This document shows, one piece after another, positions 1 through 15,277 of a stretch of 42,929 nucleotides of DNA. A model generated the notes under the pieces. It was not told where the DNA came from, ran no database searches, and saw nothing but the letters and a program-made list of their open reading frames with translations. Each line of letters starts with the position of its first letter. The first letter of the stretch is position 1. This DNA comes from a virus, in the IMG/VR virus record IMGVR_UViG_3300031951_000376, positions 1 through 42,929 of that record. One strand, written 5' to 3'. The position numbers and the translations under genes are program-made.

Positions 1-54
1 CCAGCACTGTTTCTTACATATCAAAACGTATCAGATCTTCACAAAAATCATAAT

Positions 55-319
55 GTTCGAAAGTTCGGTTTTATTTCAATGGGTTTGGACAAAATCTAAA
101 ATTCCCTGTTTTTTCCCTGCGTCTCGCGGATTTCACCCAAATTTTGCCCTTTTATCTCGCCAACCCCAAAAACCGACCGAACTTTTAGAACTTTACGAAC
201 TTACCTTAAAATTCAAGCACTTACTCAAATTTTAAAAACCGAACACTTCAGAACATTAAGAACTTTACACACGTGCCCAACACGTTGAAATTTTAAATCT
301 AAAACCGAACTTAACGAAC
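55..319. repeat. AT-rich non-coding region with clustered GAAC repeats
   Basis: The first 350 bases hold no convincing gene. GAAC words occur in three groups with about 9-base spacing: positions 179, 188, 197; then 241, 251, 260; then 307, 316. Groups are about 62-66 bases apart and each starts with CCGAAC. AAAACCGAAC occurs at 235-244 and 301-310 and in reverse complement at 63-72; further GTTC words are at 55 and 63. Helically phased short repeats in AT-rich DNA resemble iterons of replication origins or binding arrays for a regulator. Which of these it is cannot be told from sequence alone. Confidence 0.5.
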
Positions 320-350
320 ATTATACTTTCCTACCATACTTTGCTAAACA

Positions 351-379
351 TTGACAAATCACGCATCCTGTGGTAAACT
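351..379 (+). promoter_or_regulatory. sigma70-like promoter of the first early operon
   Basis: TTGACA at 351-356 and TAAACT at 374-379 are separated by 17 bases, with a TGG just before the -10 that gives an extended -10 element. It lies upstream of the palindrome at 418 and of the gene at 465. The -35 is a perfect consensus, so early transcription by host RNA polymerase is likely. Confidence 0.75.
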
Positions 380-417
380 GTAATCTGTTGGCTGGGAAAA
401 GTAACAACCCGACAACA

Positions 418-439
418 TTGTTATACAGTGGTATAACAA
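418..439. promoter_or_regulatory. palindrome copy 1 (operator or RNA hairpin)
   Basis: TTGTTATAC-AGTG-GTATAACAA is a perfect inverted repeat with 9-base arms. It lies about 40 bases past the -10 of the promoter at 351-379 and 25 bases before the first gene. It is the first of five copies. The right arm also reads TGG-TATAAC, which could act as an extended -10 element. Confidence 0.75.
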
Positions 440-464
440 AATCACATAACCAACGAGGTGCATC

Positions 465-689
465 ATGTCAACTAACAAACCGCGAGGTCATACCGTTCGA
501 CACCAACGACGCGTTATATCCTCAGCCCAAAAGTCCGACCCACGTGCAGCGCGATACACAGACAACTTCAACGAAGCCATGAACCGCTGGCTTGCCGAGT
601 CAGTACTACATGAGTACGACGAGGGCGATGAAAAAGCTAGACAAGATTGGCGGTATAAGTTGTTAACAGAAGAAAAGATAAAGAGGTGA
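465..689 (+). CDS. hypothetical protein, 74 aa
   Basis: This is the first gene of the early operon. The ATG at 465 follows a GAGGTG ribosome site at 455-460. The product is basic at its N-terminus (several Arg and His in the first 30 residues) and mixed-charge helical after that, with no recognised motif. It sits downstream of a promoter and palindrome, as expected for an early host-directed phage protein, but no function can be assigned. Confidence 0.65.
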   Translation: MSTNKPRGHTVRHQRRVISSAQKSDPRAARYTDNFNEAMNRWLAESVLHEYDEGDEKARQDWRYKLLTEEKIKR

Positions 690-692
690 GTT

Positions 693-914
693 ATGGCACA
701 CAAATTTTTATGTACTGAATGTCTTTTTGCGCGTGTACCAGCAGCCAGAGCGCGTCGCTGTATCGACGAGAAGGTACGCATCACATGCGCCGAATGCGGA
801 GAAATGCTGGCAAGGAAAGTAAAACGGTGTGTGGTGAACATGAACAAAGTGGCTTACATGATGGTCACTGACTTAGAAACTTTGAAACAACTTAACCCAA
901 AGAGGACGACATGA
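693..914 (+). CDS. small Cys-rich (zinc-ribbon-like) protein, 73 aa
   Basis: The ATG at 693 follows GAGGTGAG three bases after the previous stop. The protein has Cys pairs at residues 7/10 and 32/35, plus Cys 23. Two CxxC knuckles about 22 residues apart are the usual layout of a zinc ribbon, so it probably binds zinc and perhaps nucleic acid or a protein partner. Its stop overlaps the next start. The family is unknown and the function is inference. Confidence 0.65.
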   Translation: MAHKFLCTECLFARVPAARARRCIDEKVRITCAECGEMLARKVKRCVVNMNKVAYMMVTDLETLKQLNPKRTT

Positions 915-1063
915 ACAATAGCATCTGGATAATATTAACAACAATCCTATCCTGCGTTATGGTCGGATGGGCACTCGATACCGATGGGCGATACCTGCAA
1001 CAGGCGACGCTAGTAATCGCGGGTTTGTTGGTCGGTATGCTTTTGGGTGAGGGTGAGAAATGA
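911..1063 (+). CDS. small membrane protein, 50 aa
   Basis: ATG at 911 overlaps the end of the preceding gene (ATGA-type). Translation gives 50 residues with two hydrophobic stretches, about residues 5-20 and 33-46, separated by a short polar loop with DTDGR. This suggests a two-pass inner-membrane protein. It ends in a second ATGA overlap. A holin-like or host-membrane role is possible but nothing specific supports it. Confidence 0.6.
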   Translation: MNNSIWIILTTILSCVMVGWALDTDGRYLQQATLVIAGLLVGMLLGEGEK

Positions 1064-1146
1064 ACTGGAAAAACTTTGAGCGTGGAACTATCTGCGTAAT
1101 CCGTTTGTTTAACGGTAAGCCAGAGGCGGAACTGTCAAATGCTTGA
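1060..1146 (+). CDS. micro-ORF, 28 aa
   Basis: ATG at 1060 overlaps the previous stop (ATGA), with GGGTGAG as a possible ribosome site. The 28-residue product begins MNWKNFERG and has no recognised motif. Its last codons overlap the -35 of the promoter at 1143. It may be a real coupled peptide or chance; the coupling is its only support. Confidence 0.4.
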   Translation: MNWKNFERGTICVIRLFNGKPEAELSNA

Positions 1147-1171
1147 CTTTGATAGCAAATAGTGTTATAAT
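1143..1171 (+). promoter_or_regulatory. sigma70-like promoter upstream of the 302-aa gene
   Basis: TTGACT (1143-1148) and TATAAT (1166-1171) are separated by exactly 17 bases. It is followed by a roughly 115-base leader that contains palindrome copy 2. It probably drives the genes from 1287 and perhaps the MoxR-like genes downstream. Confidence 0.8.
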
Positions 1172-1232
1172 GTGTCTTATAGTAGTAAAACGTAGTAGCA
1201 GTGGCAGCACAGTAATGCAGAGTAAATCGACG

Positions 1233-1252
1233 TGTTATACGACCGTATAACA
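1233..1252. promoter_or_regulatory. palindrome copy 2 (operator or RNA hairpin)
   Basis: TGTTATAC-GACC-GTATAACA has perfect 8-base arms. It lies about 60 bases downstream of the promoter at 1143-1171, within its predicted 5' leader, and 34 bases before the start at 1287. Confidence 0.75.
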
Positions 1253-1269
1253 ACTTAACAGCAACACAA

Positions 1270-1281
1270 ACTTATAGGTGA
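1270..1281 (+). promoter_or_regulatory. conserved leader ACTTATAGGTGA with ribosome site
   Basis: ACTTATAGGTGA ends six bases before the ATG at 1287. The same element (ACTTTATAGGTGA) precedes the genes at 2301 and 5216. AGGTGA is the ribosome site, and it decides for ATG 1287 over the GTG at 1278, which lies inside the site itself. Confidence 0.6.
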
Positions 1282-1286
1282 TTCAA

Positions 1287-2195
1287 ATGAACATTATGCA
1301 AATGACACTCGCAACTCCCGAAGTACAGTCCGTACCTTCTATCGCATCTAGTGCCATGTTCGTGGAACTCAGTATCTCCACATGGACAGGTCGCAAGCTA
1401 GACAAACGCGCCACCAAAGAAACAACCCAAGCCAACGGCGCGGATGATCGTGCTGGCTCATTCCACAAGAAACTATTGGGTGACTGCGCCGAACTTGATG
1501 CGATCCACAAGTTCGCTGGCAACGTGCGTACCTTCCACTACCACAGCACGATGCCGTGGTCTGACATGGGTATGCGTCTGCTACCGACAGCAGCGTACAT
1601 GGACTACCACAACGAGATCACGCGACTAGAGCAGGAGTTTCACCGCTTGGTCGGGGAGTTCTTGACAGCGTACCAGTGGGCACAGACTGAAGCACAGGTA
1701 AAGCTTGGTAACTTGTTCAGCACCGACGACTACCCGCTTGCCGACGTGCTGGCTGGTAAGTTCAAGTTCCGCTACGCCTACCAGATCATTCCAGATGCTG
1801 GCGACTTTCGTCTTAACGTAGCAAACGATGCGGCGACGTACCTGCAACAGCAGTACCAGCAGCACTACACGCAGCAGCTAACTAACGCGATGAACGACGT
1901 GTGGCAGCGCACGTATGACTCGCTTAAACACATGAGCGAGAAGCTTGACTATCCAGACAAGGATGACAAGTCAACACGTAAGATATTCCGCGACTCGCTC
2001 GTTGATAACGTCAAGGACATGATGAACTTGCTGATCAAGTTCAACATAACCAACGACGCCAAGATGGACAACATGCGTCTGGCTTTGGAAGATGCCATGT
2101 TCGGTGTATCGCCCGAAGCACTGCGCGAGGACGATGACTTCCGCGCCGAGACTAAGCGCAAGGTCGATGCCGTACTGTCAAACATGAAGTGGTAG
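1287..2195 (+). CDS. conserved phage protein of unknown function, 302 aa, in the MoxR-VWA gene set
   Basis: Start ATG 1287 is chosen from the AGGTGA at 1276-1281. The product is soluble, mostly helical and acidic near the C-terminus, without catalytic motifs I recognise. Glutamine-rich helical sequence lies around residues 180-200. Position and size resemble the DUF3150-type proteins that I recall beside AAA+/VWA genes in some phages, but the match is from memory and tentative. It is followed by a MoxR-like ATPase and a VWA-like metallopeptidase, so it may be the third partner or substrate adaptor of that chaperone set. It carries its own promoter, palindrome and leader. Confidence 0.75.
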   Translation: MNIMQMTLATPEVQSVPSIASSAMFVELSISTWTGRKLDKRATKETTQANGADDRAGSFHKKLLGDCAELDAIHKFAGNVRTFHYHSTMPWSDMGMRLLPTAAYMDYHNEITRLEQEFHRLVGEFLTAYQWAQTEAQVKLGNLFSTDDYPLADVLAGKFKFRYAYQIIPDAGDFRLNVANDAATYLQQQYQQHYTQQLTNAMNDVWQRTYDSLKHMSEKLDYPDKDDKSTRKIFRDSLVDNVKDMMNLLIKFNITNDAKMDNMRLALEDAMFGVSPEALREDDDFRAETKRKVDAVLSNMKW

Positions 2196-2207
2196 TAGCA
2201 AGTGGTG

Positions 2208-2233
2208 GGTTGTTATACGGTGGTATAACAACC
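2208..2233. promoter_or_regulatory. palindrome copy 3 (operator or RNA hairpin)
   Basis: GGTTGTTATAC-GGTG-GTATAACAACC is a perfect inverted repeat with 11-base arms in the gap between the 302-aa gene and the AAA+ gene. The outer GG/CC pair replaces the AA/TT pair of copy 4, so symmetry is kept while the bases change. The right arm with TGG-TATAAC could also serve as an extended -10. Confidence 0.75.
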
Positions 2234-2282
2234 TTCGATTCCCGTGGTGTATTTATATTTCTGTAGTTATTAACCCTCAATA

Positions 2283-2295
2283 ACTTTATAGGTGA
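2283..2295 (+). promoter_or_regulatory. conserved leader ACTTTATAGGTGA with ribosome site
   Basis: This is the second copy of the leader element, ending five bases before the ATG at 2301. It supplies the ribosome site AGGTGA and argues against the in-frame GTG at 2292, which falls inside it. Confidence 0.6.
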
Positions 2296-2300
2296 ATAGC

Positions 2301-3404
2301 ATGACAAACGTAGCCAAGCTTTACGAAGTATCAATCAATCAGTGCGCCAACATGATGCTGGCAAACCGTGGCCGTACTACCCTAGTGCAGGGTCACATGG
2401 GTTCAGGCAAGTCATCGATCCTGAAACTGTTGGGTAGTCGTCTGCCTAACCATGTCATGGTGTACTTCGACTGCACGACAAAGGACTTGGGTGACATGGC
2501 CCTGCCTGTACTGCAACACGTTGATCGTGATGGGTGTGTGCGGTTCATACCTAACGAAGAACTGGGTATTCACTTGGGCAAGCCTGTGATCGTGATGATC
2601 GACGAGTACGGCAAAGCTAACCCTTCCGTCAAGAATGCACTGTTGCGCTTCATGTTAGAGCGTGAGTTCGCAGGTCACAAGCTTCATCCTGACAGCGTAA
2701 TCTTTGCGACTACTAATCTCGGGGCTGAGGGCGTAGGTGACTTGCTGCCGCCACATGCACGTAACCGCATCACTGTATTGCGTATGCGTAACAGCACGAC
2801 CGAAGAGTGGGTAGAGAACTTTGCTATCCCCAATGGCATTGACCCTGTGATGATTGCGTTCGTACTGGATGATCGGTACAAGCACGACTTGTCTGCTAAG
2901 TTCGACGAGGTGGAAGATCCTAAGACTAACGAGTATATCTACCACCCCAAAGACAAGGGGCGCGAAGCATTTTTTACATGGCGTTCGTGCCATGCGGCAA
3001 GCGATTGGCTGAAGGTACGTGATCAGTTGTCAACACATGAGTTGACCGCAGCGTTGATCGGTACGATAGGCGGCAAGGCTGCTGCTGAGTTGGCTGCGTT
3101 TGTTGCAGTGGGTGATCAGTTGCCAAGCTTGGAATCCATTAAGAAAACACCGCTTACTGCTGAAGTGCCGACAGCTCCAGTGGCTTGCAGTATGGTGGTC
3201 TATCGCACGTTGTCATGTATCGAGCGTAGTTGGATGGATTCATGGATGGACTACCTTGCACGTCTGCCGCGTGAGTTGCAGGTTATGTTCGCCATGCAGG
3301 TACGTAAGAACAGCTACGCCAAGCGTGACGAGGTAATGAGCAATGCCAAGTTCACCAAGTGGTGCTTGGACAATAACTTCATCGCTGTCACTGATAAGAA
3401 ATAA
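2301..3404 (+). CDS. MoxR-like AAA+ ATPase, 367 aa
   Basis: An AAA+ ATPase of the MoxR/CobS type. Walker A is G31-H-M-G-S-G-K37-S38; Walker B is VIVMIDEYGKA with D101 and E102; a sensor-1 region VIFATTNLGA lies at 133-142 and is followed by ARNR (153-156) as a candidate arginine finger. In this family the ATPase remodels protein complexes together with a VWA-domain partner. The next gene encodes exactly such a partner, 10 bases downstream. Start ATG 2301 is set by the AGGTGA leader. The client in the infected cell is unknown; the N-terminal AAA+ assignment is secure, the C-terminal third (about 230-367) is not recognised. Confidence 0.88.
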   Translation: MTNVAKLYEVSINQCANMMLANRGRTTLVQGHMGSGKSSILKLLGSRLPNHVMVYFDCTTKDLGDMALPVLQHVDRDGCVRFIPNEELGIHLGKPVIVMIDEYGKANPSVKNALLRFMLEREFAGHKLHPDSVIFATTNLGAEGVGDLLPPHARNRITVLRMRNSTTEEWVENFAIPNGIDPVMIAFVLDDRYKHDLSAKFDEVEDPKTNEYIYHPKDKGREAFFTWRSCHAASDWLKVRDQLSTHELTAALIGTIGGKAAAELAAFVAVGDQLPSLESIKKTPLTAEVPTAPVACSMVVYRTLSCIERSWMDSWMDYLARLPRELQVMFAMQVRKNSYAKRDEVMSNAKFTKWCLDNNFIAVTDKK

Positions 3405-3414
3405 GGGGATCGAC

Positions 3415-4602
3415 ATGCTAATGATCGGTAAAGAAATTAGTCCGCGTGATCGCGTACTGAAGGGCGTGGCTGCAATCATGGGCAACAATGATTACGACGG
3501 TATCAATGGCTTGTTAATGATTGGTGACCATACTGTTGTCAGTGCCGGTAACCCGAAGGGTATACGTACTGCTGCAACTAATGGCAAGCATACGTGGTAT
3601 CTGGACGACTTTGTTGCGCAGCTAAACGATGCAGAGTTGCGGTTCCTTATCCTGCATGAGGTATTCCACATACTACTGAAACACCTTAGTACGTATGACT
3701 ACCTGCACAAGCTAGATGCGGATAGGTGCAACCGTGCCTGTGACTACGTGATCAACGGTATGTTGATTGACTACGACGCGGGTAAGGGTTTCATCACTAT
3801 GCCTAAGATGGGGCTGTACGATCCCAAGTACAAAGGCATGGACGCGGATGCTGTGTTCAAGTTGTTAGCCAGTGATGACAATGGTGGCGGCGGTGGTGGC
3901 GGGTCTATCGATGACCATGATTGGGATGGTGCTGAAGAGATGACCGAAGCCGAGCAGGTAGAACTCGAACAGGCTATTGACCAAGCATTGCGTCAGGGTG
4001 CGTTACTCGCAGGTAAGAATGGGTCGGGCGGTGCGCGTCTGATCGAGGACTTGCTTGCGAGTAAGGTGGACTACAAGGCTGCCTTGCGTGAGTGGGTATG
4101 TGATACGTGCGCAGGTAATGATTACTCGACATGGACTCGCCCCAACCGTAGGTATCTATCGCATAACATGGTAATGCCAAGTGGCGTGTCCGAAGTTGTC
4201 GGTGAACTTGTTATCGGTAACGACATGTCAGGTTCTATCGGTGCGCGTGAGGTGGCACAGATACTGGGCGAGGTGGCAAACATTGCTGACTCTGTTAATC
4301 CGTCTGGCATTCGTCTGCTGTACTGGGACACGGCTGTGTGCGGTGACGAGTACTACGAGCAAGGGGACTATCAGAACATGTTGCAGTCTACTAAACCTGT
4401 GGGCGGTGGTGGCACTGACGTGCGCTGTGTGTCTGACTACCTGCGTGACAAGGCTATAACTCCGCAAGGTGTAATCATCATTACCGATGGCTACTTGGGT
4501 GGCGATTGGGGTGATTGGTCTGTGCCTACCCTGTGGGTGATAGTGGGCAACCCGCACACGACCGCTCCGTTCGGGCATACCGTGCATGTGGAAATAGACT
4601 AA
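3415..4602 (+). CDS. putative metallopeptidase / VWA-like protein (DUF2201 type), 395 aa
   Basis: The N-terminal part has a zinc-type HEVFH motif (residues 81-85), then H90 and the NRACDYVIN segment (106-114), the usual layout of the DUF2201 putative metallopeptidase domain. A Gly/Asp-rich linker (about 154-172) and an acidic helical stretch follow. The C-terminal part is VWA-like, with a MIDAS motif DMSGS (270-274), GGGTD (331-335) and ITDG (356-359). In this family such proteins pair with MoxR AAA+ ATPases, and the ATPase is immediately upstream. ATG 3415 follows AAGGGGAT. The metal sites look intact, so metal-dependent adhesion to a client, and possibly proteolysis, is plausible. Confidence 0.88.
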   Translation: MLMIGKEISPRDRVLKGVAAIMGNNDYDGINGLLMIGDHTVVSAGNPKGIRTAATNGKHTWYLDDFVAQLNDAELRFLILHEVFHILLKHLSTYDYLHKLDADRCNRACDYVINGMLIDYDAGKGFITMPKMGLYDPKYKGMDADAVFKLLASDDNGGGGGGGSIDDHDWDGAEEMTEAEQVELEQAIDQALRQGALLAGKNGSGGARLIEDLLASKVDYKAALREWVCDTCAGNDYSTWTRPNRRYLSHNMVMPSGVSEVVGELVIGNDMSGSIGAREVAQILGEVANIADSVNPSGIRLLYWDTAVCGDEYYEQGDYQNMLQSTKPVGGGGTDVRCVSDYLRDKAITPQGVIIITDGYLGGDWGDWSVPTLWVIVGNPHTTAPFGHTVHVEID

Positions 4603-4626
4603 TTGTTATACGGCGGTATAACAATT
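4601..4626. promoter_or_regulatory. palindrome copy 4 (operator or RNA hairpin)
   Basis: AATTGTTATAC-GGCG-GTATAACAATT has perfect 11-base arms. It begins at the stop codon region of the VWA-like gene and precedes the next gene group by about 40 bases. A TTTT follows closely, but the stem is too AT-rich for a typical intrinsic terminator. Confidence 0.75.
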
Positions 4627-4667
4627 TTACAGAACTTAACTGAAACCAGTGACTAGGGAGATACGAC

Positions 4668-4856
4668 ATGAAAACATTAGATGAAATTAAAGAACGCGCA
4701 CAAGCTATAGCTGAGATGCACTTTTATGCTGACCTTGATGACAATACACTATGGGAACCGTTCGAGAACTATAACGACGAATGGATAGCAAAAGAAATTG
4801 AAAACATGGCAGATATGCTCACGCGCAATATGCTTTGGGCGCAAGGGGAGAAATGA
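4668..4856 (+). CDS. hypothetical acidic protein, 62 aa
   Basis: ATG 4668 follows AGGGAGATACGAC. The short product is acidic and mostly helical, with no motif. It is the first gene after palindrome copy 4 and is followed one base after its stop by the next start. No function is assigned. Confidence 0.65.
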   Translation: MKTLDEIKERAQAIAEMHFYADLDDNTLWEPFENYNDEWIAKEIENMADMLTRNMLWAQGEK

Positions 4857-4857
4857 C

Positions 4858-5046
4858 ATGATCGACGATACAAACTTAGCGCAGTGCCAGTACTGCAAGG
4901 TTGTTATTAACTGGGAAGATGTTGAGTACGTAGGTGATCCGTATTGCAGCGATGGTACGGTGACACGATGCGCTGAATGTAACGAAGGCGAGAGCTTTAA
5001 TAACTACAAGGGAGACAAGCATGATTCCGCGTTATCGCAAGTATAA
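4858..5046 (+). CDS. small Cys-rich (zinc-ribbon-like) protein, 62 aa
   Basis: The start ATG 4858 uses the GGGGAG at the end of the upstream gene; an in-frame upstream ATG at 4798 would overlap that gene and lacks a site. Cys residues at 10/13 and 38/41, with Cys 30, form two CxxC knuckles typical of a zinc ribbon. It probably binds zinc and nucleic acid or a protein. It resembles the product of the gene at 693 in cysteine layout only. Confidence 0.65.
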   Translation: MIDDTNLAQCQYCKVVINWEDVEYVGDPYCSDGTVTRCAECNEGESFNNYKGDKHDSALSQV

Positions 5047-5122
5047 CGTACACCATCGAAGTGTATACGCACGATTGCTTCGCCATTTAAAATTTGTTCG
5101 GGGAGCTAAACATGGACATTGA
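5021..5122 (+). CDS. small basic ORF, 33 aa
   Basis: The ATG at 5021 lies inside the end of the preceding gene, seven bases after AAGGGAGA. Translation gives a strongly basic 33-residue peptide (MIPRYRKYNVHHRS...) that overlaps the next start. A good ribosome site and chain overlap support it; small size and unknown family count against it. A nucleic-acid-binding role would fit the charge but is a guess. Confidence 0.45.
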   Translation: MIPRYRKYNVHHRSVYARLLRHLKFVRGAKHGH

Positions 5123-5183
5123 TGATTGGATGATGGTATTTTATATCTGTTGCATAGTAGTGCTGTTCATAATTGGTATTTAA
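5112..5183 (+). CDS. single-pass membrane micro-protein, 23 aa
   Basis: ATG 5112 follows CGGGGAGCT. The peptide MDIDDWMMVF... has an acidic N-terminus and one hydrophobic stretch (about residues 7-23) running to the C-terminus. The composition is that of a small membrane peptide, and the strong ribosome site supports translation. Confidence 0.5.
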   Translation: MDIDDWMMVFYICCIVVLFIIGI

Positions 5184-5197
5184 TTTAACTACACATA

Positions 5198-5210
5198 ACT
5201 TTATAGGTGA
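5198..5210 (+). promoter_or_regulatory. conserved leader ACTTTATAGGTGA with ribosome site
   Basis: This is the third copy of the leader element, identical over 13 bases to the copy at 2283-2295 and ending five bases before ATG 5216. There is no palindrome just upstream of this copy. Confidence 0.6.
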
Positions 5211-5215
5211 AAACT

Positions 5216-6145
5216 ATGTCAAGCTATTCGCACATACCCACAGCAGCAATGGGCAAACTCGAAGTGCCGCAGATGGTAGAGGAGGGCATACCACGCGTCG
5301 ATGGTATTCCCATGTCGCATTCGCTGCATGAGTTCTGTACTGAACTGCGCAAGAAGTTCCCGAAAGTAAAGTTCCATGCAAATTCGGACTACAACAAAAT
5401 AAACAGAAACACATTGATGGTGTCTGACGTTCTGGTATACACGGACGATTGTGACTATGTGATAGGACGCATAGGCTATGGCAACAGTTACGCTATGGGT
5501 TCTGATGAGTCGGTGTTCATGGTCGAGAGCCGCAAGATACAAAATGAGAAGTACGCCGAGTATCGTGATCAATACTTTCGTGTGTTTACAAAAGATATTA
5601 ACAAGGCACTGAAAAATGCGCAGCGGTATCTGCTACCGTATTCATCTGCCGAGTTACTAACAACAACATACGGTACGTTTAAAAACGCGTTGGAAACTAG
5701 GCGGTATGTCGCAGACCGAGAGTTTGATCAGGCCATTGGTCGCGTTTCTCCGAGCGTCATACTGGGTGCAGAGATAGAAGCGTTATTCAGTAAGGGCGTG
5801 GAGTTCACTACTTCTGACTTCCAGCTACACGTGCAGGAGATTGTCGATAAGTACCGCCGTCGCCAGCAGGTGTTTCGTAAGGATAACCGCTCGTACTTTA
5901 TTACTTTGCGCGTATTGGGTGACAATCAGGTAGCGGAGATTGCTACGTGTAAAGACCCTAAAGGTAGTAATCCAAAGCTGCATGACTTCTACGACGAGCC
6001 GAGCAAAACTGTACGCGTGGATAGTTTGCCTGAAGATATTACTGCGAAGATTGCTACGTTGATGTTGGTTGACGTAAGTGAGCATATCGAAGGTGTAGGT
6101 CTACGTGCAAGTACTCGTTCATTCTGGATTGAAAGGGGCGCGTGA
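5216..6145 (+). CDS. hypothetical protein, 309 aa, with C-terminal motif shared with the next gene
   Basis: The start ATG 5216 is set by the AGGTGA leader. The protein is soluble with mixed alpha/beta character and a basic middle (RRRQQ near residue 227). I do not recognise the family. Its last 45 or so residues contain SLPEDITAKIATLMLVD, a GVG and a final FWI, which line up with the end of the neighbouring product: SVDELPEWMKLKLATLMLLD, GVG and YWI. The two genes therefore share a C-terminal module. The stop overlaps the next start (TGATG), so the two are translationally coupled. Confidence 0.7.
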   Translation: MSSYSHIPTAAMGKLEVPQMVEEGIPRVDGIPMSHSLHEFCTELRKKFPKVKFHANSDYNKINRNTLMVSDVLVYTDDCDYVIGRIGYGNSYAMGSDESVFMVESRKIQNEKYAEYRDQYFRVFTKDINKALKNAQRYLLPYSSAELLTTTYGTFKNALETRRYVADREFDQAIGRVSPSVILGAEIEALFSKGVEFTTSDFQLHVQEIVDKYRRRQQVFRKDNRSYFITLRVLGDNQVAEIATCKDPKGSNPKLHDFYDEPSKTVRVDSLPEDITAKIATLMLVDVSEHIEGVGLRASTRSFWIERGA

Positions 6146-6639
6146 TGGAAGAAGTACCGATTGAAGACGTACAAACAAGAGTGCGCAAGACTAATGCAAA
6201 CTGGAAACGCAGCACTGCGATGGAGAGGGGCGTGAGAAACGGATCGTTCGACGTGATTAGTTCAATCGAGATCATTGTAACCAATGATTTATTTACGGAT
6301 GATCTTCAGGTTATCCGCACACCATTAGACGTTATAGAAGCGCAAATTACTATGGCACTAGACATACCAACAATAAGACTATTGATTAGTCCTGATGGAT
6401 TGGTAAATACAATGACGTGGCCTATTCAATCTGGTATGGTTACCGAGTGTACGTATGACAGCGTAGACGAACTACCTGAATGGATGAAGTTAAAACTTGC
6501 GACGTTGATGTTACTTGATGCAAACGAGCCTAACAAAAAAGACGTAGTAGGAGTCGGTAGGCGCATCAGTGAAAACGTTTATTGGATATACCTAGATGGC
6601 AGCGACACCGGAAAAGAAAGTGAAGGTCAAAGTACGTAA
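6145..6639 (+). CDS. hypothetical protein, 164 aa, C-terminal module shared with upstream gene
   Basis: ATG 6145 overlaps the previous stop as TGATG, after AAAGGGGCG. The C-terminal 50 residues repeat the pattern of the upstream product (ATLMLLD, GVG, YWI); the N-terminal part is different. That fits a shortened paralog or a partner with a shared interaction module. The family is unknown. Its end overlaps the nuclease gene by 44 bases in another frame. Confidence 0.65.
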   Translation: MEEVPIEDVQTRVRKTNANWKRSTAMERGVRNGSFDVISSIEIIVTNDLFTDDLQVIRTPLDVIEAQITMALDIPTIRLLISPDGLVNTMTWPIQSGMVTECTYDSVDELPEWMKLKLATLMLLDANEPNKKDVVGVGRRISENVYWIYLDGSDTGKESEGQST

Positions 6640-6904
6640 GTGCTTAGACGAGTTAGGCGCATACTATTCTATGCCTGTCACAAGCGGGTATGGGAACTCA
6701 GGTGCGCCTGACTTTCTTGTTTGCTTCAAGGGGCGGTTCATCGGCATTGAGTGTAAAGCCAATGGTGGTAAGCCGACCCCACTACAAGAGAAAAACCTAC
6801 GTGCTATTGAGAAAGCTGGTGGGTGCAGCTACGTGGTAGATGAAACCAACGTGGACTTTTTATTACCAATGTTATACCGCTGTATAACAAATGAGGGGAA
6901 ATGA
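6596..6904 (+). CDS. VRR-NUC family nuclease, 102 aa
   Basis: A stand-alone VRR-NUC domain of the PD-(D/E)XK superfamily. Residues 36-55 carry GAPDF with D39 and the IECKA pair E52/K54, followed by the usual GKPTPLQ with Q64. Short phage versions of this family are metal-dependent DNA nucleases, often proposed to resolve branched DNA during replication or packaging. The ATG at 6596 is inside the preceding gene (44-base overlap) and has no clear ribosome site, so coupled translation is likely. Palindrome copy 5 lies inside its last codons. Confidence 0.85.
   Translation: MAATPEKKVKVKVRKCLDELGAYYSMPVTSGYGNSGAPDFLVCFKGRFIGIECKANGGKPTPLQEKNLRAIEKAGGCSYVVDETNVDFLLPMLYRCITNEGK
6870..6889. promoter_or_regulatory. 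palindrome copy 5, inside the end of the nuclease gene
   Basis: TGTTATAC-CGCT-GTATAACA has perfect 8-base arms. It is the only copy within a coding sequence: it encodes residues near the end of the VRR-NUC protein and sits 17 bases before the start of the HTH-like gene at 6906. Keeping the palindrome inside codons argues for selection. Confidence 0.75.
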
Positions 6905-6905
6905 C

Positions 6906-7319
6906 ATGACTACTATGCGCAGACGTAAGTCAAACAGCAAATCCAAAGCTGCAAAGATTAGGAAGTTACTTGTTCAAGGTGAACTCACGTCAACCGAGAT
7001 CGCCAACAAGGTCAAGGTGTCAGCAAATTATGTATACATTATCAAAGGGCAGATGAAGCAGAAAGGGTTGATTGGCGGTGCGCAAGAAGAAATGTCTCGC
7101 GTTCACCCACCCGCAGACCCTACCGCGATACCAGTGCCTACAAGCAGCGGGAAGCGTGGCCGTCCACCAAAAAGAATCGAGCCAAAACTGGAAGGGTTAT
7201 CGGAGCCGCTACCTGTGTATATACCGGCTGCGAGGCAAAACCCATTTGGTATCGAAGCAACCCCGCCTGTTGGTTTGTGGAACACATTCATTGCTAAGTT
7301 GAGGAAATGGTTAGCATGA
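6906..7319 (+). CDS. putative DNA-binding protein with HTH, 137 aa
   Basis: The start ATG 6906 follows GAGGGGAAATGAC. The N-terminal 20 residues are Lys/Arg/Ser-rich. Residues about 20-50 (KIRKLLVQGELTSTEIA, then VSANYVYIIKG) look like a helix-turn-helix of the MarR/GntR-like or sigma-region-4-like sort. A second basic patch GKRGRPPKR resembles an AT-hook. Palindrome copy 5 lies directly upstream, so this is the best candidate within the window for a protein that binds the palindromes. That link is inference. Confidence 0.7.
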   Translation: MTTMRRRKSNSKSKAAKIRKLLVQGELTSTEIANKVKVSANYVYIIKGQMKQKGLIGGAQEEMSRVHPPADPTAIPVPTSSGKRGRPPKRIEPKLEGLSEPLPVYIPAARQNPFGIEATPPVGLWNTFIAKLRKWLA

Positions 7320-7492
7320 GGGAAGATTCTATAAAAGTAATGCTGGACAAAGCAGAAAGAAATGACAAGTTGTACAGCAACTGGCAAGCAGCTCGAATAC
7401 GCAAATACTTAGCGGCGAAGATCGTTGAAGCTAGACGTACCGCAGAAGATATAAAACAACTTAAAGAAGAAAGGAGCAAAGATGTTACGTGA
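7316..7492 (+). CDS. hypothetical helical protein, 58 aa
   Basis: ATG 7316 overlaps the previous stop (ATGA), with GAGG at 7301-7304; the in-frame ATG 7307 is too close to that site. The product is highly charged and helical (many Lys, Arg, Glu), perhaps a coiled coil. The next start lies 11 bases before its end. Family unknown. Confidence 0.6.
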   Translation: MREDSIKVMLDKAERNDKLYSNWQAARIRKYLAAKIVEARRTAEDIKQLKEERSKDVT

Positions 7493-7706
7493 CGGTAAAT
7501 TCATTAAAGAAGACCCGCCCAAGATAGGCGCACACTACCTACCTACCGCGCAACACAAAGACTTCACCGAGGAAGAATGGCGCACTCAGATGTTGTTGCT
7601 TGGTGATACCGAGCGAAAGGAAGGTTTGATAAGTGACGTAGTCGTTTGGGCAGCGGTGTTCCTTCTCACCGTAAATATACTTTATTTGATTATCAAAGGT
7701 TTCTAA
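7482..7706 (+). CDS. small protein with C-terminal membrane anchor, 74 aa
   Basis: ATG 7482 follows AAGGAG. The first 48 residues are polar and the last 23 (about 50-72) form one hydrophobic segment, giving a tail-anchored topology. Similar small anchored proteins are common in phage early regions. Function unknown. It ends in a TAATG overlap. Confidence 0.6.
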   Translation: MLRDGKFIKEDPPKIGAHYLPTAQHKDFTEEEWRTQMLLLGDTERKEGLISDVVVWAAVFLLTVNILYLIIKGF

Positions 7707-7954
7707 TGGCAAACGACAATCTAGCAGAGAAAGATATTTATACGGTGTACGAGCTACGCGGTATTACGTACATACCGCATTACACTGAGCCGTCTCACTA
7801 CGTAGGCCCCGGATATGGAAGTTTGAATTACACCATATACTACGCTACCACGTTATTAGCAGCAGGTGCAGTGCCGAGACAAGAGTACTTGCTGAAACGT
7901 GCACGTGAATCCGCTAACAAAAAGATGAGGGCTTATGAACGAGCAAAAGCGTAA
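7706..7954 (+). CDS. hypothetical protein, 82 aa
   Basis: ATG 7706 overlaps the upstream stop (TAATG), after AAAGG. The product is Tyr-rich in the middle (about residues 12-47) and ends in a basic helix. No motif is recognised. The next start lies 20 bases before its end. Confidence 0.6.
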   Translation: MANDNLAEKDIYTVYELRGITYIPHYTEPSHYVGPGYGSLNYTIYYATTLLAAGAVPRQEYLLKRARESANKKMRAYERAKA

Positions 7955-8102
7955 CTACGCATCCGAAGCGCAGCGTCAACTACAGGAGACGCGAGTACAT
8001 GTACCAGAAGGAATGTATAACGTGTTGGAGCTTTACAAGTACATCGACGAGTTGCACATCCGTATAGGTAGAGAAGGGATGAAGGAGATGGGTGATGAGT
8101 GA
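7935..8102 (+). CDS. hypothetical protein, 55 aa
   Basis: ATG 7935 follows GAGGG inside the previous gene. Translation gives 55 residues (MNEQKRNYASEAQ...), charged and helical, with a YNVLELYKYIDELHIRIG stretch in the second half. It overlaps the next start by eight bases. Support comes from the ribosome site and gap-free packing; function unknown. Confidence 0.55.
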   Translation: MNEQKRNYASEAQRQLQETRVHVPEGMYNVLELYKYIDELHIRIGREGMKEMGDE

Positions 8103-8367
8103 CGCGAGTATGAGTAAGGAAGATCATCGGCACATATTTGGATCAGAAGTGCCAATAATTAACATCGCAAGAGGCATAGCACACGACGTGATACGCATGG
8201 ACTTGGGGGATTGCCAAGTGGACAGACTCGCTCGAATGTCGCTTGAGTTCATTGACGTGTTCGAAGCGGCGCATGACATGGTACATGCCAAGACGGATAC
8301 AGCCAGCAGACGCGCATACGTTGAGTTGTTTAGGATGGTCAGAGAACTTGAAAGCAAGGTGCGATGA
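8095..8367 (+). CDS. hypothetical protein, 90 aa
   Basis: ATG 8095 follows AAGGAG at about 10 bases. The product is an acidic helical protein without motif; a central stretch (residues 35-65) is predicted helix. Its stop TGA at 8365-8367 overlaps the next start. No function assigned. Confidence 0.6.
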   Translation: MSDASMSKEDHRHIFGSEVPIINIARGIAHDVIRMDLGDCQVDRLARMSLEFIDVFEAAHDMVHAKTDTASRRAYVELFRMVRELESKVR

Positions 8368-8465
8368 TGGAAACTTTTACTATGTATTGCTTCATTGGTG
8401 GATTCCTATGCGGTATGGGATTCTGTGTCGCCATAATGGGTGCGTGTATTTATTTTTTAGGGTGA
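8367..8465 (+). CDS. small Cys/Gly-rich membrane protein, 32 aa
   Basis: ATG 8367 overlaps the stop of the upstream gene; an adjacent ATG at 8364 is in frame but closer to the AAGGTG site. The peptide METFTMYCFIGG... is one long hydrophobic stretch with four Cys and several Gly, so a single membrane-spanning peptide. It lies just before another membrane protein gene, and the two could work as a pair. Confidence 0.5.
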   Translation: METFTMYCFIGGFLCGMGFCVAIMGACIYFLG

Positions 8466-8468
8466 CAA

Positions 8469-8672
8469 ATGATAATCGATACGATTGACTACAGAAAAAT
8501 CTTTACGTGGATCAACGACGTGTGGGCGAAATCTTTAGCGGCGGTGGTTATGTTTTTCATCGGGTTATATACAGGGCAAGTACAGACAGAGAGCCGAGTG
8601 ATTGGTGACTGCAAGTACGCTGGAGCCTTTCGCGTAGAGCAACAAGCCTTTACATGTCAACGGAGAATTTAA
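8469..8672 (+). CDS. small membrane protein, 67 aa
   Basis: ATG 8469 follows AGGGTGACAA. One membrane span lies at about residues 18-38 (KSLAAVVMFFIGLYTG), with a short N-terminal part and a C-terminal domain containing two Cys (C48, C63) that could form a disulfide if periplasmic. An i-spanin or holin-like role could be imagined, but no endolysin is nearby, so I leave it unassigned. Confidence 0.6.
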   Translation: MIIDTIDYRKIFTWINDVWAKSLAAVVMFFIGLYTGQVQTESRVIGDCKYAGAFRVEQQAFTCQRRI

Positions 8673-8673
8673 A

Positions 8674-8931
8674 ATGAACAAAACTGAAGCGGAAAAGTTT
8701 GTAGAACAGGTAGATAACTTGTGCGAAAAAGTTGATGGCGTACTGGTGGCAAATAATCCACTTGCTTGTTTACTTGCGCTATCGCGTTTATTAGGTTCTG
8801 GTCTGGCTATTGACATAGTAGGGCATTATCCTAGTTTTGATACTTTAGATAATGCCATGACCCTTATTGATGGGGCTATCCGCGCAGCATATAACGATAT
8901 GGAACGCGCAAAAAGGGAGGGCATACAGTGA
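8674..8931 (+). CDS. hypothetical protein, 85 aa
   Basis: ATG 8674 starts two bases after the previous stop, with CGGAG upstream. The product is helical, with a moderately hydrophobic middle (about residues 26-50) that looks like a buried core rather than a clear membrane span. The stop overlaps a GTG start. Function unknown. Confidence 0.6.
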   Translation: MNKTEAEKFVEQVDNLCEKVDGVLVANNPLACLLALSRLLGSGLAIDIVGHYPSFDTLDNAMTLIDGAIRAAYNDMERAKREGIQ

Positions 8932-9089
8932 GTGACTTCGTAACACCCGCCGATGTTAATGCGATGAAGACTGAGATCGCAGCTTTGAAGCGTGAGAACG
9001 AAATACTGTACAAGTGGTTAGCCGAGCAGAAAGCACACGTCGATGAACTGCGTAAGATGATGTTGCAGAACAGAGGGGACGCCAAATGA
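8928..9089 (+). CDS. small coiled-coil protein, 53 aa (GTG start)
   Basis: A GTG start at 8928 overlaps the upstream stop (GTGA), with a strong AAGGGAGGG site. Residues 11-50 form a Leu/Ile heptad-like helix with charged flanks (KTEIAALKRENEIL...), typical of a short coiled coil. It ends in an ATGA overlap with the next gene. It may dimerise; role unknown. Confidence 0.55.
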   Translation: MSDFVTPADVNAMKTEIAALKRENEILYKWLAEQKAHVDELRKMMLQNRGDAK

Positions 9090-9247
9090 AATACGAAGTC
9101 TATGACGAAGAAGGCAAACTCTTCCGCAAGTTTTGGGATCGCACTGAGGCGCAGAAGTTCTTACAAGACGGATGGAAACTTGTAACTAAAGCCAAAGAGA
9201 AAGAAGTTAAGCCAACACCTGAGACGCATGGCGAGGCGCTGATATGA
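9086..9247 (+). CDS. hypothetical protein, 53 aa
   Basis: ATG 9086 overlaps the upstream stop and follows GAGGGGAC. The product starts MKYEVYDEEGKLFRKF, which suggests a small beta-sheet unit, then becomes Lys/Glu-rich. Its stop overlaps ATG 9244. Family unknown. Confidence 0.55.
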   Translation: MKYEVYDEEGKLFRKFWDRTEAQKFLQDGWKLVTKAKEKEVKPTPETHGEALI

Positions 9248-9621
9248 ATAAAGATGACATTATCCGCATGGCGCATGAGGCCGGGCTAACCCGCAAATAT
9301 AGAGAAACCGATTTAGATGTTGTGGCACATAGTTTTACGCAAATTGAACGATTTGCCGCCCTAGTCGCAGCAGCAGAGCGCGAGAAGGTAGCTCAATGGA
9401 TGATGCAACGCGGGTACGCCACTGGTCACGGCGACACGACAGAGGACTTGCTGGCTGAACTGGATTGGCAGATTGTTGAGAACTGGACGCGGGCAATGGT
9501 CAAGGGAGTGGAAACAGAGCGCGAGGCTTGTGCGAAGGTGTGTGATGCGCTTGGCGATGAATACGCCGATGCAAACCCTGCTGACTGCGCCGCCGCTATC
9601 CGCGCAAGGGGGCAGGAATGA
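9244..9621 (+). CDS. conserved hypothetical phage protein, 125 aa
   Basis: ATG 9244 follows GCGAGGCGC and overlaps the previous stop. The end of the protein carries the pattern EREACAKV...CAAAIRARG, which I know as a recurrent C-terminal pattern in small phage proteins of unknown function. The next gene has the same ending, so the two are partial paralogs side by side. The N-terminal half is helical (MNKDDIIRMAHEAG). Confidence 0.65.
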   Translation: MNKDDIIRMAHEAGLTRKYRETDLDVVAHSFTQIERFAALVAAAEREKVAQWMMQRGYATGHGDTTEDLLAELDWQIVENWTRAMVKGVETEREACAKVCDALGDEYADANPADCAAAIRARGQE

Positions 9622-9863
9622 ATGACGAACAAAAGCGTGAAGCTGCCACTGATCTAAGCGCGAATGTATTGTGGCTCATCGAGCAAGTGTTGGTAAAACA
9701 TAACATTGCCATTATCGAGGCATCAAAGGAAGCAATTGATGATGCAGTGGCAAAGGAACGAGAGGAATGCGCAAAGATTGTTGACAAATGGTTTAACAGT
9801 ATGTCCAGCGAACCAGAAATGGCAGAGATCGCGGCAGAGATAAGAGCAAGGGGTGCGCCATGA
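9618..9863 (+). CDS. hypothetical protein, 81 aa, paralogous tail with upstream gene
   Basis: ATG 9618 follows GGGGGCAGGA and overlaps the upstream stop. The sequence EREECAKIVD...AAEIRARGAP matches the tail of the preceding protein, whereas the first 45 residues differ. It is probably a shortened duplicate. Function unknown. Confidence 0.62.
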   Translation: MNDEQKREAATDLSANVLWLIEQVLVKHNIAIIEASKEAIDDAVAKEREECAKIVDKWFNSMSSEPEMAEIAAEIRARGAP

Positions 9864-10099
9864 GCAAATGGGTTGTCCATACAAAAGGTGGATATACAAC
9901 AGATAGCTTTGAGGTTTGCGTCATCCGCGCCGACAACAAGCACGGTAAAGAGTCTTACGGCTGGTTTGACAAAGACAAAATATACATCAGCGGTTCTGGT
10001 GGACCATGTCACCACAAGATTGTCAGCAAAATGATATGGGTCGGATTGGTTGAATTGGCGCACAAAGTGGCAGATAAGATGAATGAGGAAACCAAATGA
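9860..10099 (+). CDS. hypothetical protein, 79 aa
   Basis: ATG 9860 overlaps the previous stop (ATGA), with AAGGGG upstream. The product is basic, with a beta-rich first half (WVVHTKGGYTTDSFEVCVI) and a helical end; a CHH triplet sits near residue 50. No family recognised. Confidence 0.6.
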   Translation: MSKWVVHTKGGYTTDSFEVCVIRADNKHGKESYGWFDKDKIYISGSGGPCHHKIVSKMIWVGLVELAHKVADKMNEETK

Positions 10100-10503
10100 C
10101 AATCACACTAACACGCGAGGAAGCGCAGCAGATGCTGAAAGTTCTGGAATATCCCGGTCCATCTTGGCCTGAGTCTCGTACAGAACTTGCGGTCGCACTC
10201 CGCTACAAGCTAAGCGCACCTGAACCGGAGCCGGTGGCGTGGCAGTCAAGAATGCGCCCCGATTGGGAAGAAAATGGTTGGACTCAATGGAAAGAATGCC
10301 CAAAAGAACAAGCAGATGATTTCTGGAAAGTTCTCTATCTTCATGATTGGGTTTATGAAGCTCGTGCACTCTACACCGCCCCACCAAAGCGCGAATGGGT
10401 CGGACTGACGGATGAGGATAGACAAGAATTAGCGGCAGAGCAGTACGGTTGGGAAGGCTTATGTTCTGCGGTAGAAGCCAAGCTGCGGGAGAAGAACACA
10501 TGA
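10096..10503 (+). CDS. conserved hypothetical phage protein with YTAPP-REWVGLT motif, 135 aa
   Basis: ATG 10096 overlaps the previous stop. The protein has an N-terminal helical part, an EPEPVAW linker, the motif ALYTAPPKREWVGLTDED and a final helix ending EAKLREKN. This ending recurs in the gene at 11087. The pattern is common in small phage proteins of unknown function. The last codons, ribosome site and next start form a junction sequence that is repeated downstream. Confidence 0.68.
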   Translation: MTITLTREEAQQMLKVLEYPGPSWPESRTELAVALRYKLSAPEPEPVAWQSRMRPDWEENGWTQWKECPKEQADDFWKVLYLHDWVYEARALYTAPPKREWVGLTDEDRQELAAEQYGWEGLCSAVEAKLREKNT

Positions 10504-10853
10504 AAGTCGTTTTCCATCGATCCGGTAAGCTTCCTTTGAATGAGATGACCATCGAATGGTTCGCGGACCGATTTGATCTTTCCTTGCAGGTCTATGAACG
10601 GGACCCGGACCTCGCTGCGAAAAAAGGCAGATTCTTTTGTTACTTCGCGAACGTAGAAGTGCAAGAGCAAAAGGGATTTCTCACTTCTGCGACAGGAAAT
10701 GGAGAAACGATCCTTATCGCGGTGGATGATTACTGCAAAGAGATCAGCAACAAGACGCTAGTTATTAATGCCATGGACCCTGAATCACGGACCGAGGTGA
10801 TGACCAGCAAGATTACCCCTCAATGGACCATGGAGGCTGTTTTTGAAGAGTAA
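10500..10853 (+). CDS. hypothetical protein, 117 aa
   Basis: ATG 10500 overlaps the upstream stop, seven bases after GGGAGAAG; an upstream in-frame ATG at 10449 would lie deep in the previous gene. The product is alpha/beta, starting MKVVFHRSGKLPLN, with no recognised domain. With the next gene it forms a pair sitting between two paralogs that end in the same junction sequence, so it looks like an inserted cassette. Confidence 0.6.
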   Translation: MKVVFHRSGKLPLNEMTIEWFADRFDLSLQVYERDPDLAAKKGRFFCYFANVEVQEQKGFLTSATGNGETILIAVDDYCKEISNKTLVINAMDPESRTEVMTSKITPQWTMEAVFEE

Positions 10854-10865
10854 GGAGAAGAACAC

Positions 10866-11090
10866 ATGATCGCGCATCTTGATAATGGCAAATCAACAGA
10901 GATTCGCCCCGGAGCCGCAACGATGGGACTGTCTGTTGTTCGTTGGGAGTTTGATTACAACGACATGATTTGGCTGCTGGATAATCCTGAATCATTGGCA
11001 ATACTTGCTACCCGTATGCCGCCCACATTGAAGGAGAACAACATGAAGAAGTATTTAGCAAGTCCTAATCCTTGGAAGTTGATGCCATGA
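10866..11090 (+). CDS. hypothetical protein, 74 aa, with internal relic of a gene junction
   Basis: ATG 10866 follows AAGGAGAAGAACAC, a copy of the local junction sequence. The first 58 residues form one unit; then the gene reads in frame through a second junction-like sequence (AAGGAGAACAACATGA at 11031-11046) into a 15-residue tail starting MKKYLASPNP. It therefore looks like two former genes fused, or a gene with an internal restart. Function unknown. Confidence 0.55.
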   Translation: MIAHLDNGKSTEIRPGAATMGLSVVRWEFDYNDMIWLLDNPESLAILATRMPPTLKENNMKKYLASPNPWKLMP

Positions 11091-11425
11091 ACGACAGAGA
11101 ACTAATGCAGCAGGCGCTTGATGCGTTAATAACAGCGGAACTTGATGGAAATTGTGAATACGGCGTGACTGATGCCCTACGCACTCGATTAGCGCAGCCA
11201 GAGCAGGAGCCGGTGGCGCAAGTGAACTACAACGAAAGGCAAAACATTGCTTGGTTGTTTGGAAAGCAACTGCCAGATGGAACGCTACTTTACACCGCCC
11301 CACCACAGCGCGAATGGGTTGGGTTAACACCAGAAGAAGCAAGAGAAATATCACTAGCTAACAGACCATACGTTATCGACATGGTGTATGCGCTTGAAGC
11401 CAAGCTCAAGGAGAAGAACTCATGA
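11087..11425 (+). CDS. conserved hypothetical phage protein, paralog of the 135-aa product, 112 aa
   Basis: ATG 11087 overlaps the previous stop. The second half (LLYTAPPQREWVGLTPEE) and the last helix (ALEAKLKEKN) match the gene at 10096, and an EQEPVAQ linker matches its EPEPVAW; the first 35 residues differ. This is a clear partial paralog. Its stop sits in another copy of the junction repeat. Confidence 0.65.
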   Translation: MNDRELMQQALDALITAELDGNCEYGVTDALRTRLAQPEQEPVAQVNYNERQNIAWLFGKQLPDGTLLYTAPPQREWVGLTPEEAREISLANRPYVIDMVYALEAKLKEKNS

Positions 11426-11607
11426 CGCGAGCAACCACAGACGATGTAATCATAGCCGTTCGCATAGCTAGTTTTTACCCTTTAAGTAGTGCAGCAAAGC
11501 AAGAAGTGGTAACAGCTATTTCTGAAGAAATGGTCAAGCTTGGACATAAGCATAACTTTATAGTTTACAGAGCAAGTATGGAAAGTAAATTAGGGGGTAA
11601 CATTTGA
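11422..11607 (+). CDS. hypothetical protein, 61 aa
   Basis: ATG 11422 overlaps the previous stop in the junction AAGGAGAAGAACTC. A small helical protein without motif. Its stop overlaps the TTG start of the DNA polymerase, so it feeds coupled translation of that gene. Confidence 0.58.
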   Translation: MTRATTDDVIIAVRIASFYPLSSAAKQEVVTAISEEMVKLGHKHNFIVYRASMESKLGGNI

Positions 11608-13445: not shown

Positions 13446-14125
13446 TGAGCCAGATACAAGCTATAGAAACAGAGTACAAAGGGTACTTATTTCGTTCTAG
13501 GCTGGAAGCTAGGTGGGCGGTGTTCTTTGATACGTTAGGTATCGAGTGGAAGTATGAGAGCGAGGGGTACAAAACAGCCAATGGGGAGATGTACCTACCT
13601 GACTTTGTGCTGCCCGGGTACGGTGGTCGCCACTGGACTAAAGCCGGGGTCGAGCTTGGAGATATATTTGTCGAAGTCAAAGGCGATCCTCATGGGTTGG
13701 TAAAGGACTTTGAGCGGCAAGTGCGCCTACACGATTGGGGTGGCGTACTCCCTAATTTCGCGGACTCTTACGGCGCACACCCAGTTAATGGGTTATTGCT
13801 ACTGGGGGAAATCCCAGAAGCTTCGCAGAGTAATGCGTACTTTCATCCTATTATTCAGCACTACAAAGGGTTGACTAGGTCGTGGGCTATGTTTACCCCG
13901 CACTATATGGACGTGCTGCGGCAGGGGAATTCCCTTACAGAGTTACTAACCTTAGAGCCAGATTGTGGAGCGGACACCGATCCTAACCTTTGGCGGGTAG
14001 AGACGCGGCGAGTACACGTGTACAAGTATTACCACAAGGTATACGATGCCTACGCAGCAGCCCGATCAGCTAGGTTCGAGCATGGGCAGTCTGGAAGAGT
14101 TACCAAAGGGGGGTTTCGTCGATGA
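13445..14125 (+). CDS. putative PD-(D/E)XK-like phage nuclease, 226 aa
   Basis: ATG 13445 overlaps the polymerase stop (TGATG) after GGAG. The N-terminal third has the pattern FRSRLEARWAVFFDTLGI (E21), then YLPDF (D53) and FVEVKG (E77/K79). E...D...ExK with this spacing is what I know from small phage endonuclease-like proteins of the PD-(D/E)XK superfamily. The C-terminal 130 residues are not recognised. It sits between the polymerase and another nuclease, so a role in recombination, host DNA breakdown or replication intermediates is likely. Confidence 0.75.
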   Translation: MSQIQAIETEYKGYLFRSRLEARWAVFFDTLGIEWKYESEGYKTANGEMYLPDFVLPGYGGRHWTKAGVELGDIFVEVKGDPHGLVKDFERQVRLHDWGGVLPNFADSYGAHPVNGLLLLGEIPEASQSNAYFHPIIQHYKGLTRSWAMFTPHYMDVLRQGNSLTELLTLEPDCGADTDPNLWRVETRRVHVYKYYHKVYDAYAAARSARFEHGQSGRVTKGGFRR

Positions 14126-14790: not shown

Positions 14791-15038
14791 TGCCTTATAC
14801 GAAGAGTCCAAGACCGTACAAGCACGAATACGAGATGCAGAAAAAGCGCGGGGAACTACCTGACCGCATGGAGCGTCAACGTGCACGTAGAGCGTTGGAC
14901 AAGAAAGGCGTAAGTCGTAAAGGCAAAGATGTATCGCATGTTAAAGCGTTAGCAAAAGGGGGTACGAACGCTGATGGATACTATCTCGAAGCGCCGTCAA
15001 AAAATCGTTCGCGTAACGGACATAAAAAAGCAAAATAG
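14790..15038 (+). CDS. HNH-like small nuclease, 82 aa
   Basis: ATG 14790 overlaps the upstream stop (TAATG), with GGGAG six bases before. The product is very basic. The segment GKDVSHVKALAKGGTN (residues 45-60), with D47, H50 and a downstream NRSRN (72-76), follows the HNH pattern DxxHxxPxxxGGxN...N of short phage proteins, although the first His of the classical motif is replaced by Asp and no zinc Cys pairs are present. It is probably a DNA-nicking protein or a structural relative. Last gene before the promoter at 15042. Confidence 0.7.
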   Translation: MPYTKSPRPYKHEYEMQKKRGELPDRMERQRARRALDKKGVSRKGKDVSHVKALAKGGTNADGYYLEAPSKNRSRNGHKKAK

Positions 15039-15041
15039 TTG

Positions 15042-15070
15042 TTGACGCAGGCTTAGTTCGAGAATAAATT
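15042..15070 (+). promoter_or_regulatory. sigma70-like promoter for the helicase-primase transcript
   Basis: TTGACG (15042-15047) and TAAATT (15065-15070) are 17 bases apart, immediately after the stop of the HNH-like gene. It would make a leader of about 200 bases before the helicase start. A second TTGACA at 15181 has no matching -10. Confidence 0.6.
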
Positions 15071-15184: not shown

Positions 15185-15231
15185 CACGCGGACACCTACG
15201 CGGGAATCAACGAATTTAATTGTTGTACGTA

Positions 15232-15257: not shown

Positions 15258-15277
15258 TATTCCTCTTTATCTAAACT

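Follow-up and report, generated by a model that had tools for sequence, protein, structure and literature searches.

Private palindromes in the early regions of related phages suggest a fast-diversifying repressor system by which viruses may exclude each other

The window, i.e., the whole stretch of DNA analysed here, is the entire IMG/VR virus record IMGVR_UViG_3300031951_000376 (42,929 b), and the element in question is a palindrome, TGTTATAC-N4-GTATAACA, repeated in its early region. Early and replication genes (AAA ATPase, DUF2201 metallopeptidase/VWA, DNA polymerase, helicase, and primase-like) occupy the plus strand of the window, late genes the minus strand, and the record is probably incomplete as a phage genome. 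Five perfect copies of the palindrome are present; 0.23 are expected according to dinucleotide shuffles, none of which reached 5. No further copy was found across the window at ≤3 mismatches, and TGTTATAC is restricted to the ten arms of the five palindromes. Comparison with related phages suggests that such palindromes belong to a fast-diversifying repressor system, with which related viruses may exclude each other.

The palindromes lie 16-70 nt before the next gene start (465, 1287, 2301, 4668, and 6906), and their centres are mutually unrelated within this one phage. Copy 1 (419-438, centre AGTG, 9-base arms at 418-439) is located 27 nt 5' of gene 465-689, and copy 2 (1233-1252, centre GACC) 34 nt 5' of plus-strand gene 1287-2195, which encodes a conserved early protein of 302 amino acids with no assigned function. 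Copy 3 (2211-2230, centre GGTG), whose arms reach 11 bases (2208-2233) with the added outer bases GGT/ACC, stands 70 nt 5' of the AAA ATPase gene (phrog_1297, 2301-3404, plus strand); the gene of the metallopeptidase/VWA-like protein (DUF2201, 3415-4602, plus strand) is also downstream of this copy. Copy 4 (4604-4623, centre GGCG) falls between genes 3415-4602 and 4668-4856 and has 11-base arms as well (4601-4626), with the outer bases AAT/ATT. Copy 5 (6870-6889, centre CGCT) is placed inside the VRR-NUC gene (6596-6904), at its 3' end and 16 nt 5' of gene 6906-7319. Two promoter-like sequences on the plus strand, TTGACA-17-TAAACT (351-379) and TTGACT-17-TATAAT (1143-1171), have estimated start sites ~30 nt upstream of copy 1, a spacing also seen in relatives, and ~55 nt upstream of copy 2, respectively. 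A sequence-only reading of the window had reported five identical-arm palindromes without any other copy, together with their coordinates, extended arms, gene distances, and promoters upstream of copies 1 and 2; the mismatch scan and shuffles bear out the set of five, a recount reproduces the positions, arm lengths, and gene distances, and the two promoter-like sites agree with the last claim.

Relatives were found by an AAA ATPase search (92% down to 47% identity), and terminase profiles added further contigs; these are mostly fragments, starts of first genes were called mechanically, and all evidence is comparative. According to the motif scan proposed in the sequence-only reading, the window arms do not recur in any of the AAA ATPase relatives, most of which have their own recurrent palindrome, and it is another palindrome that is found at the same places. 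Thus, the closest long relative (G001, AAA ATPase 92% identical) carries CTTATAC-N4-GTATAAG at all five gene boundaries equivalent to those of the window, three additional sites upstream of the point that matches the window start, and one further site. The same reading had counted absence of the palindrome from close relatives against itself; this rule would misfire here, since the sequence is gone and its position is kept by a different palindrome. Other relatives have TGTTAGGGA-N3-TCCCTAACA, TGTTAGTC-N4-GACTAACA, TGTTAGCC-N4-GGCTAACA, WTTTCCTAC-C-GTAGGAAAW, and GTTATTATCGATAATAAC. Among >100 related contigs, almost each phage has a private palindrome of 16-21 bp with 5-16 dispersed sites per set, and ~30 distinct half-sites were counted by hand. 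Under a single detection rule, a recurrent palindrome is reported for 84 of 94 early segments, with at least 3 copies in 68 of them. Late segments of similar total length reach 2 copies in 13 of 85 cases and at least 3 copies in none (0/85), and shuffled controls show a recurrent palindrome in 5/94 and at least 3 copies in 0/94. The exact window palindrome occurs in 47 contigs, only 4 of which are clear family members, the remainder being chance-like matches; L023, L011, and L031 are relatives, as is L046.

Regarding cultured phages, megablast of the first 25 kb of the window returned no match to them, and no such recurrent palindrome was seen in the stretches read of the marine isolates 023Pt_psg01, HTVC027P, and HTVC023P, phage DSL-LC04, and Pseudomonas phage Rollin. 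Planktothrix phage Pag-Yong1 (OL906435; L185/L186), which shares the ATPase and VWA gene order of the window group, has ~30 copies of GGTTCAG-N-CTGAACC (≤2 mismatches), many of them in short intergenic gaps, in both early and late regions. Rhizobium phage RHph_TM3_14A (MN988472; L098) has ~39 copies of GTTACCT-N4-AGGTAAC (≤3 mismatches), again in early and late regions. These two cultured phages have the same kind of layout at a higher copy number and not confined to early genes. The "putative integrase" of RHph_TM3_14A (EVB41_076) is a homologue of the primase-like protein encoded at 18522-21377 of the window. Many phages carry a conserved G-rich element similar to GGGGGGTNGGGTACGGGTGGGGTC, placed 20-60 bp to the terminase side of the first palindrome, with the terminase small-subunit gene on its other side; possible roles are those of a packaging site, a G-quadruplex, or a C-rich leftward leader.

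Both arms of the palindromes change together. G004 and G005/G008 are ~90-100% identical over most early and replication genes, yet the former has TGTTAGTC sites and the latter two TGTTAGCC sites. At orthologous sites, whose flanks are mostly near-identical, T is replaced by C and the partner A by G, so that both arms are altered. The two-arm switch is also found inside the DNA polymerase gene, where it alters the protein from VSQLTNGR to VSQLANSR (T to A), and a few sites are half-switched, e.g., G005 5828 and G007 9031. In L011, TGTTAGAC and TGTTATAC half-sites are mixed within one phage (1966, 3224, 3352, and 4278), as if its operators were caught midway between two classes.

The first early gene, which adjoins the first palindrome and is divergent from the terminase genes, encodes the best candidate for a protein that reads the palindromes. 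For 41 phages, palindrome similarity is correlated with that of the first gene once terminase similarity has been removed (partial r 0.37, permutation p 0.0005), but not with that of terminase once the first gene has been removed (0.02, p 0.32). In the pairs L121/L122 and L161/L174 the terminases are 99% identical, the palindromes different, and the first proteins unrelated, and among GTC and GCC phages the first early gene, wherever a record includes it, changes along with the palindrome class. First-gene proteins mostly have 160-250 residues. A hidden Markov model (HMM) built from 19 of them recovered 27 of 37 others and 2 more on iteration, giving a family of 48/56, and no match to it outside first genes was obtained among 2,812 open reading frames at E<0.05. 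L046, which was fetched solely for holding the window palindrome, turned out to be related, and two palindrome copies flank its first-gene homologue. Taken together, the first early protein quite probably reads the palindromes. Since the contig starts downstream of the first early gene, the window does not include it, and the cognate gene would lie past the left end of the window. The sequence-only reading had proposed the products of 6906-7319 and 17270-17524 (an HTH_17 protein), both on the plus strand, as regulators, and neither proposal is supported. The former has a homologue in the closest long relative only, which argues against a general reader of the sites, and the latter does not co-vary with the palindrome, being 100% identical in G005 and G007 despite their different palindromes.

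A putative recognition segment can be located in the first protein. Between the presumed readers of TGTTAGGC (L115, L148, and L179) and those of TGTTATAC-N3 (L134 and L137) there are seven fixed differences, of which four are at alignment positions 99-105, namely 99, 101, 102, and 105, in the segment KRWxxQQxGxxLxxV, and the other three are conservative. Over all sets, the pattern [GN]SxxxD[ILMVA][RK] in this segment is present in 18/21 TTAGGG phages and 0/67 others (7/9 vs 0/29 in the first set and 10/11 vs 0/28 in the second), and by this comparison it marks the presumed TTAGGG readers. An initial, stricter code, GS[KRT][ILM]KD[ILM][RK], failed for the majority of TTAGGG phages in the second set and was widened to this pattern. 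New contigs, scored with the rule set in advance, agree with it (1/1 TTAGGG phages vs 0/10 others, p 0.09); the single positive, L360, has a first protein ≤16% identical to the earlier ones in a simple end-anchored comparison. AlphaFold2 models of two first proteins are helical, with predicted local distance difference test (pLDDT) values of 81 and 88, and in the second model the segment is within a long helix (residues 81-113).

According to promoter positions, sigma70-like start sites are concentrated 20-60 nt upstream of palindromes other than the first, on the plus strand only (34 hits at 144 sites). The first palindrome differs in that the first-gene promoter is found 60-99 nt downstream of it (18 hits at 38 sites), and a leftward promoter sought at this site was not enriched. 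G005, G008, and G011 have an additional site in the leader of the first gene. Where promoters are seen, the sites are thus mostly placed so that a protein bound to them would obstruct polymerase during elongation, and the layout suggests that the regulator's own gene is often spared.

The palindromes could be read as DNA or as RNA, which can be judged by arm deviations at 393 sites of 76 phages: 71 are in the 5' arm and 69 in the 3' arm, transitions that keep a G-U pair number 25 and those that break pairing 35, and both arms deviate at 3 positions only, vs 140 single deviations. An RNA stem is expected to favour wobble and compensation, and DNA half-sites are not. The lack of G-U preference indicates that the palindrome is read as DNA, and the sites are very probably DNA operators. 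It is unlikely that the palindromes form RNA hairpins in the early leaders, on which a phage RNA-binding protein would act in antitermination (N/boxB-like) or in translation control. The palindromes are able to fold, they lie 20-60 nt past early promoters as nut sites do, and N is the first early gene of lambda; however, neither wobble-preserving changes nor double deviations are in excess, complementarity extends into centres of 0-2 nt that are unpairable in RNA, the centres in the window are free to vary, and some sites are in the middle of the DNA polymerase gene. Among the options offered in the sequence-only reading, a multi-site operator for a phage regulator gains support from early confinement and DNA half-site behaviour, a roadblock from the many sites downstream of promoters, and a leader hairpin is disfavoured by the transitions (25 wobble-preserving vs 35 pair-breaking).

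With a probability of about 0.6, the five palindromes are DNA operators of one regulator, the product of the first early gene, which acts as a stoperator-like block. Host RNA polymerase would produce the first protein early, and the protein, as it accumulates, would occupy the palindromes in the form of symmetric dimers, chiefly at gene boundaries and 20-60 bp past early promoters. There it would halt transcription as a roadblock, similar to a stoperator, and so switch off the early operons; such a block is the likeliest action, favoured with some reserve. A second incoming genome with the identical palindrome would be silenced, and pressure to evade the regulators of relatives would account for the joint change of the protein and all sites. 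The sequences show recurrence, restriction to early regions, joint change of both arms, DNA-type symmetry, promoter spacing, first-gene co-variation, and a protein segment specific to one class; from these we infer binding by the first protein, its dimeric state, and a repressive effect, as well as exclusion as the force behind diversification, for which superinfection exclusion is plausible. A more tentative proposal is that the first proteins form a new helical DNA-binding family, always encoded by the first early gene of ~60-kb environmental phages, with a residue-to-base code, ~30+ specificities, and phage-against-phage exclusion without lysogeny.

Several results weigh against this reading. 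In a strict promoter scan most sites have no detected promoter, and co-variation of the first gene with the palindrome is correlational. The HMM did not join 8 of 56 first genes to the family; first-gene proteins have no meaningful match in Pfam, PHROG, or NCBIfam, with no known DNA-binding domain, and a fold search against PDB and BFVD at E<0.001 gave no match (a PDB sequence search had no credible match either). The predicted template modelling (pTM) scores of the AlphaFold2 models are only 0.58-0.59. As for the recognition segment, the pooled result of the first two sets (17/20 vs 0/57) includes a pattern widened on the second set, and the pre-set third test, with its single positive, is too small to decide. 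A PF00589 scan, which covers neither serine integrases nor partition genes, gave no tyrosine integrase in 17 mostly incomplete records, and an immunity role without lysogeny is conjectural. Nor need the bound protein be a repressor, since an activator or a DNA-bound antiterminator could occupy such sites. The co-variation evidence applies to this explanation equally, and about half of the phages have their first site 60-99 nt before the promoter that drives the regulator itself, a position suited to activators. It is rather unlikely, however, because most sites at detected promoters are downstream of the start site, the usual blocking position, several early promoters are already near consensus, and some sites are deep inside genes. 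Multi-copy palindromes of 16-21 bp would also suit partition, packaging, or self-marking sites (ParB/parS-like, or protecting from a phage nuclease), and some of the palindromes are parS-like in shape, but promoter spacing and early-region confinement would be unexpected and the first protein has no ParB-like match, which makes them very improbable. Chance or mobile repeats without function are contradicted by the shuffles, the two-arm change, co-variation, and early confinement, and their probability is negligible.

By analogy, the closest working parallel is the stoperators of cluster A mycobacteriophages (L5, Bxb1, and TipsytheTRex), which have a length of 13 bp, lack symmetry, depend on orientation, and are recognised by a helix-turn-helix (HTH) monomer (PMC6550527, PMC9283540). 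In both systems a single phage-specific site is repeated many times, near promoters and in the gaps between genes, and site and regulator diverge jointly between relatives; an elongation block is proposed for cluster A, and the promoter spacing here would fit it. In contrast to the oriented 13-bp site, the palindromes here have 16-21 bp and arm deviations of 71:69; the cluster A repressor has an N-terminal HTH, whereas the first-gene proteins have no HTH family match and are encoded at the first early position. Cluster A phages are temperate and have prophage inheritance genes; on the present side, no tyrosine integrase was seen in the 17 mostly incomplete records. On the features tested, the present sites fall outside the cluster A system, whose site differs in its asymmetry, its dependence on orientation, and its HTH monomer as reader.

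Bacteriophage P1 is temperate, and its C1 repressor has dispersed operators, which are asymmetric 17-mers; the likeness is one regulator with many dispersed sites in the phage genome, and the asymmetry and temperate lifestyle are the difference. KorA and KorB of IncP plasmids, which belong to known DNA-binding families, act at small palindromes at many operons in global repression; the palindromes are alike, but the first protein here has no family match. In lambda, boxB acts as an RNA hairpin whose loop is conserved, and N/boxB specificity differs between relatives. The first early gene, sites in early leaders, and varying specificity are shared with it, whereas loops vary here (five centres in one phage) and pairing is not specially preserved.

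No published description of this palindrome and first-gene system was found among open-access papers. If the proposed reading is true, these phages would offer a natural collection of tens of operator specificities, each paired with its regulator; dispersed sites would switch jointly in whole sets of 5-16, half-switched ones are still visible, and the specificity residues of the regulator would be readable by comparison. Two questions would become testable: by what route a phage re-specifies numerous dispersed operators simultaneously, and whether exclusion among lytic environmental phages works via immunity-like repressors. The phages would also be a source of candidate orthogonal repressor-operator pairs.

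As for the rest of the window, neither Rfam families nor tRNAs were found in it. The strongest terminator-like hairpin in 1-18000 is a 14-pair stem (GTAGGCAGAACTGG...) at 15229-15260, just 5' of the helicase gene at 15278. On the minus strand, 21644-27679 encodes a protein of 2011 amino acids, the C-terminal part of which matches DarB-like antirestriction families (phrog_10089).

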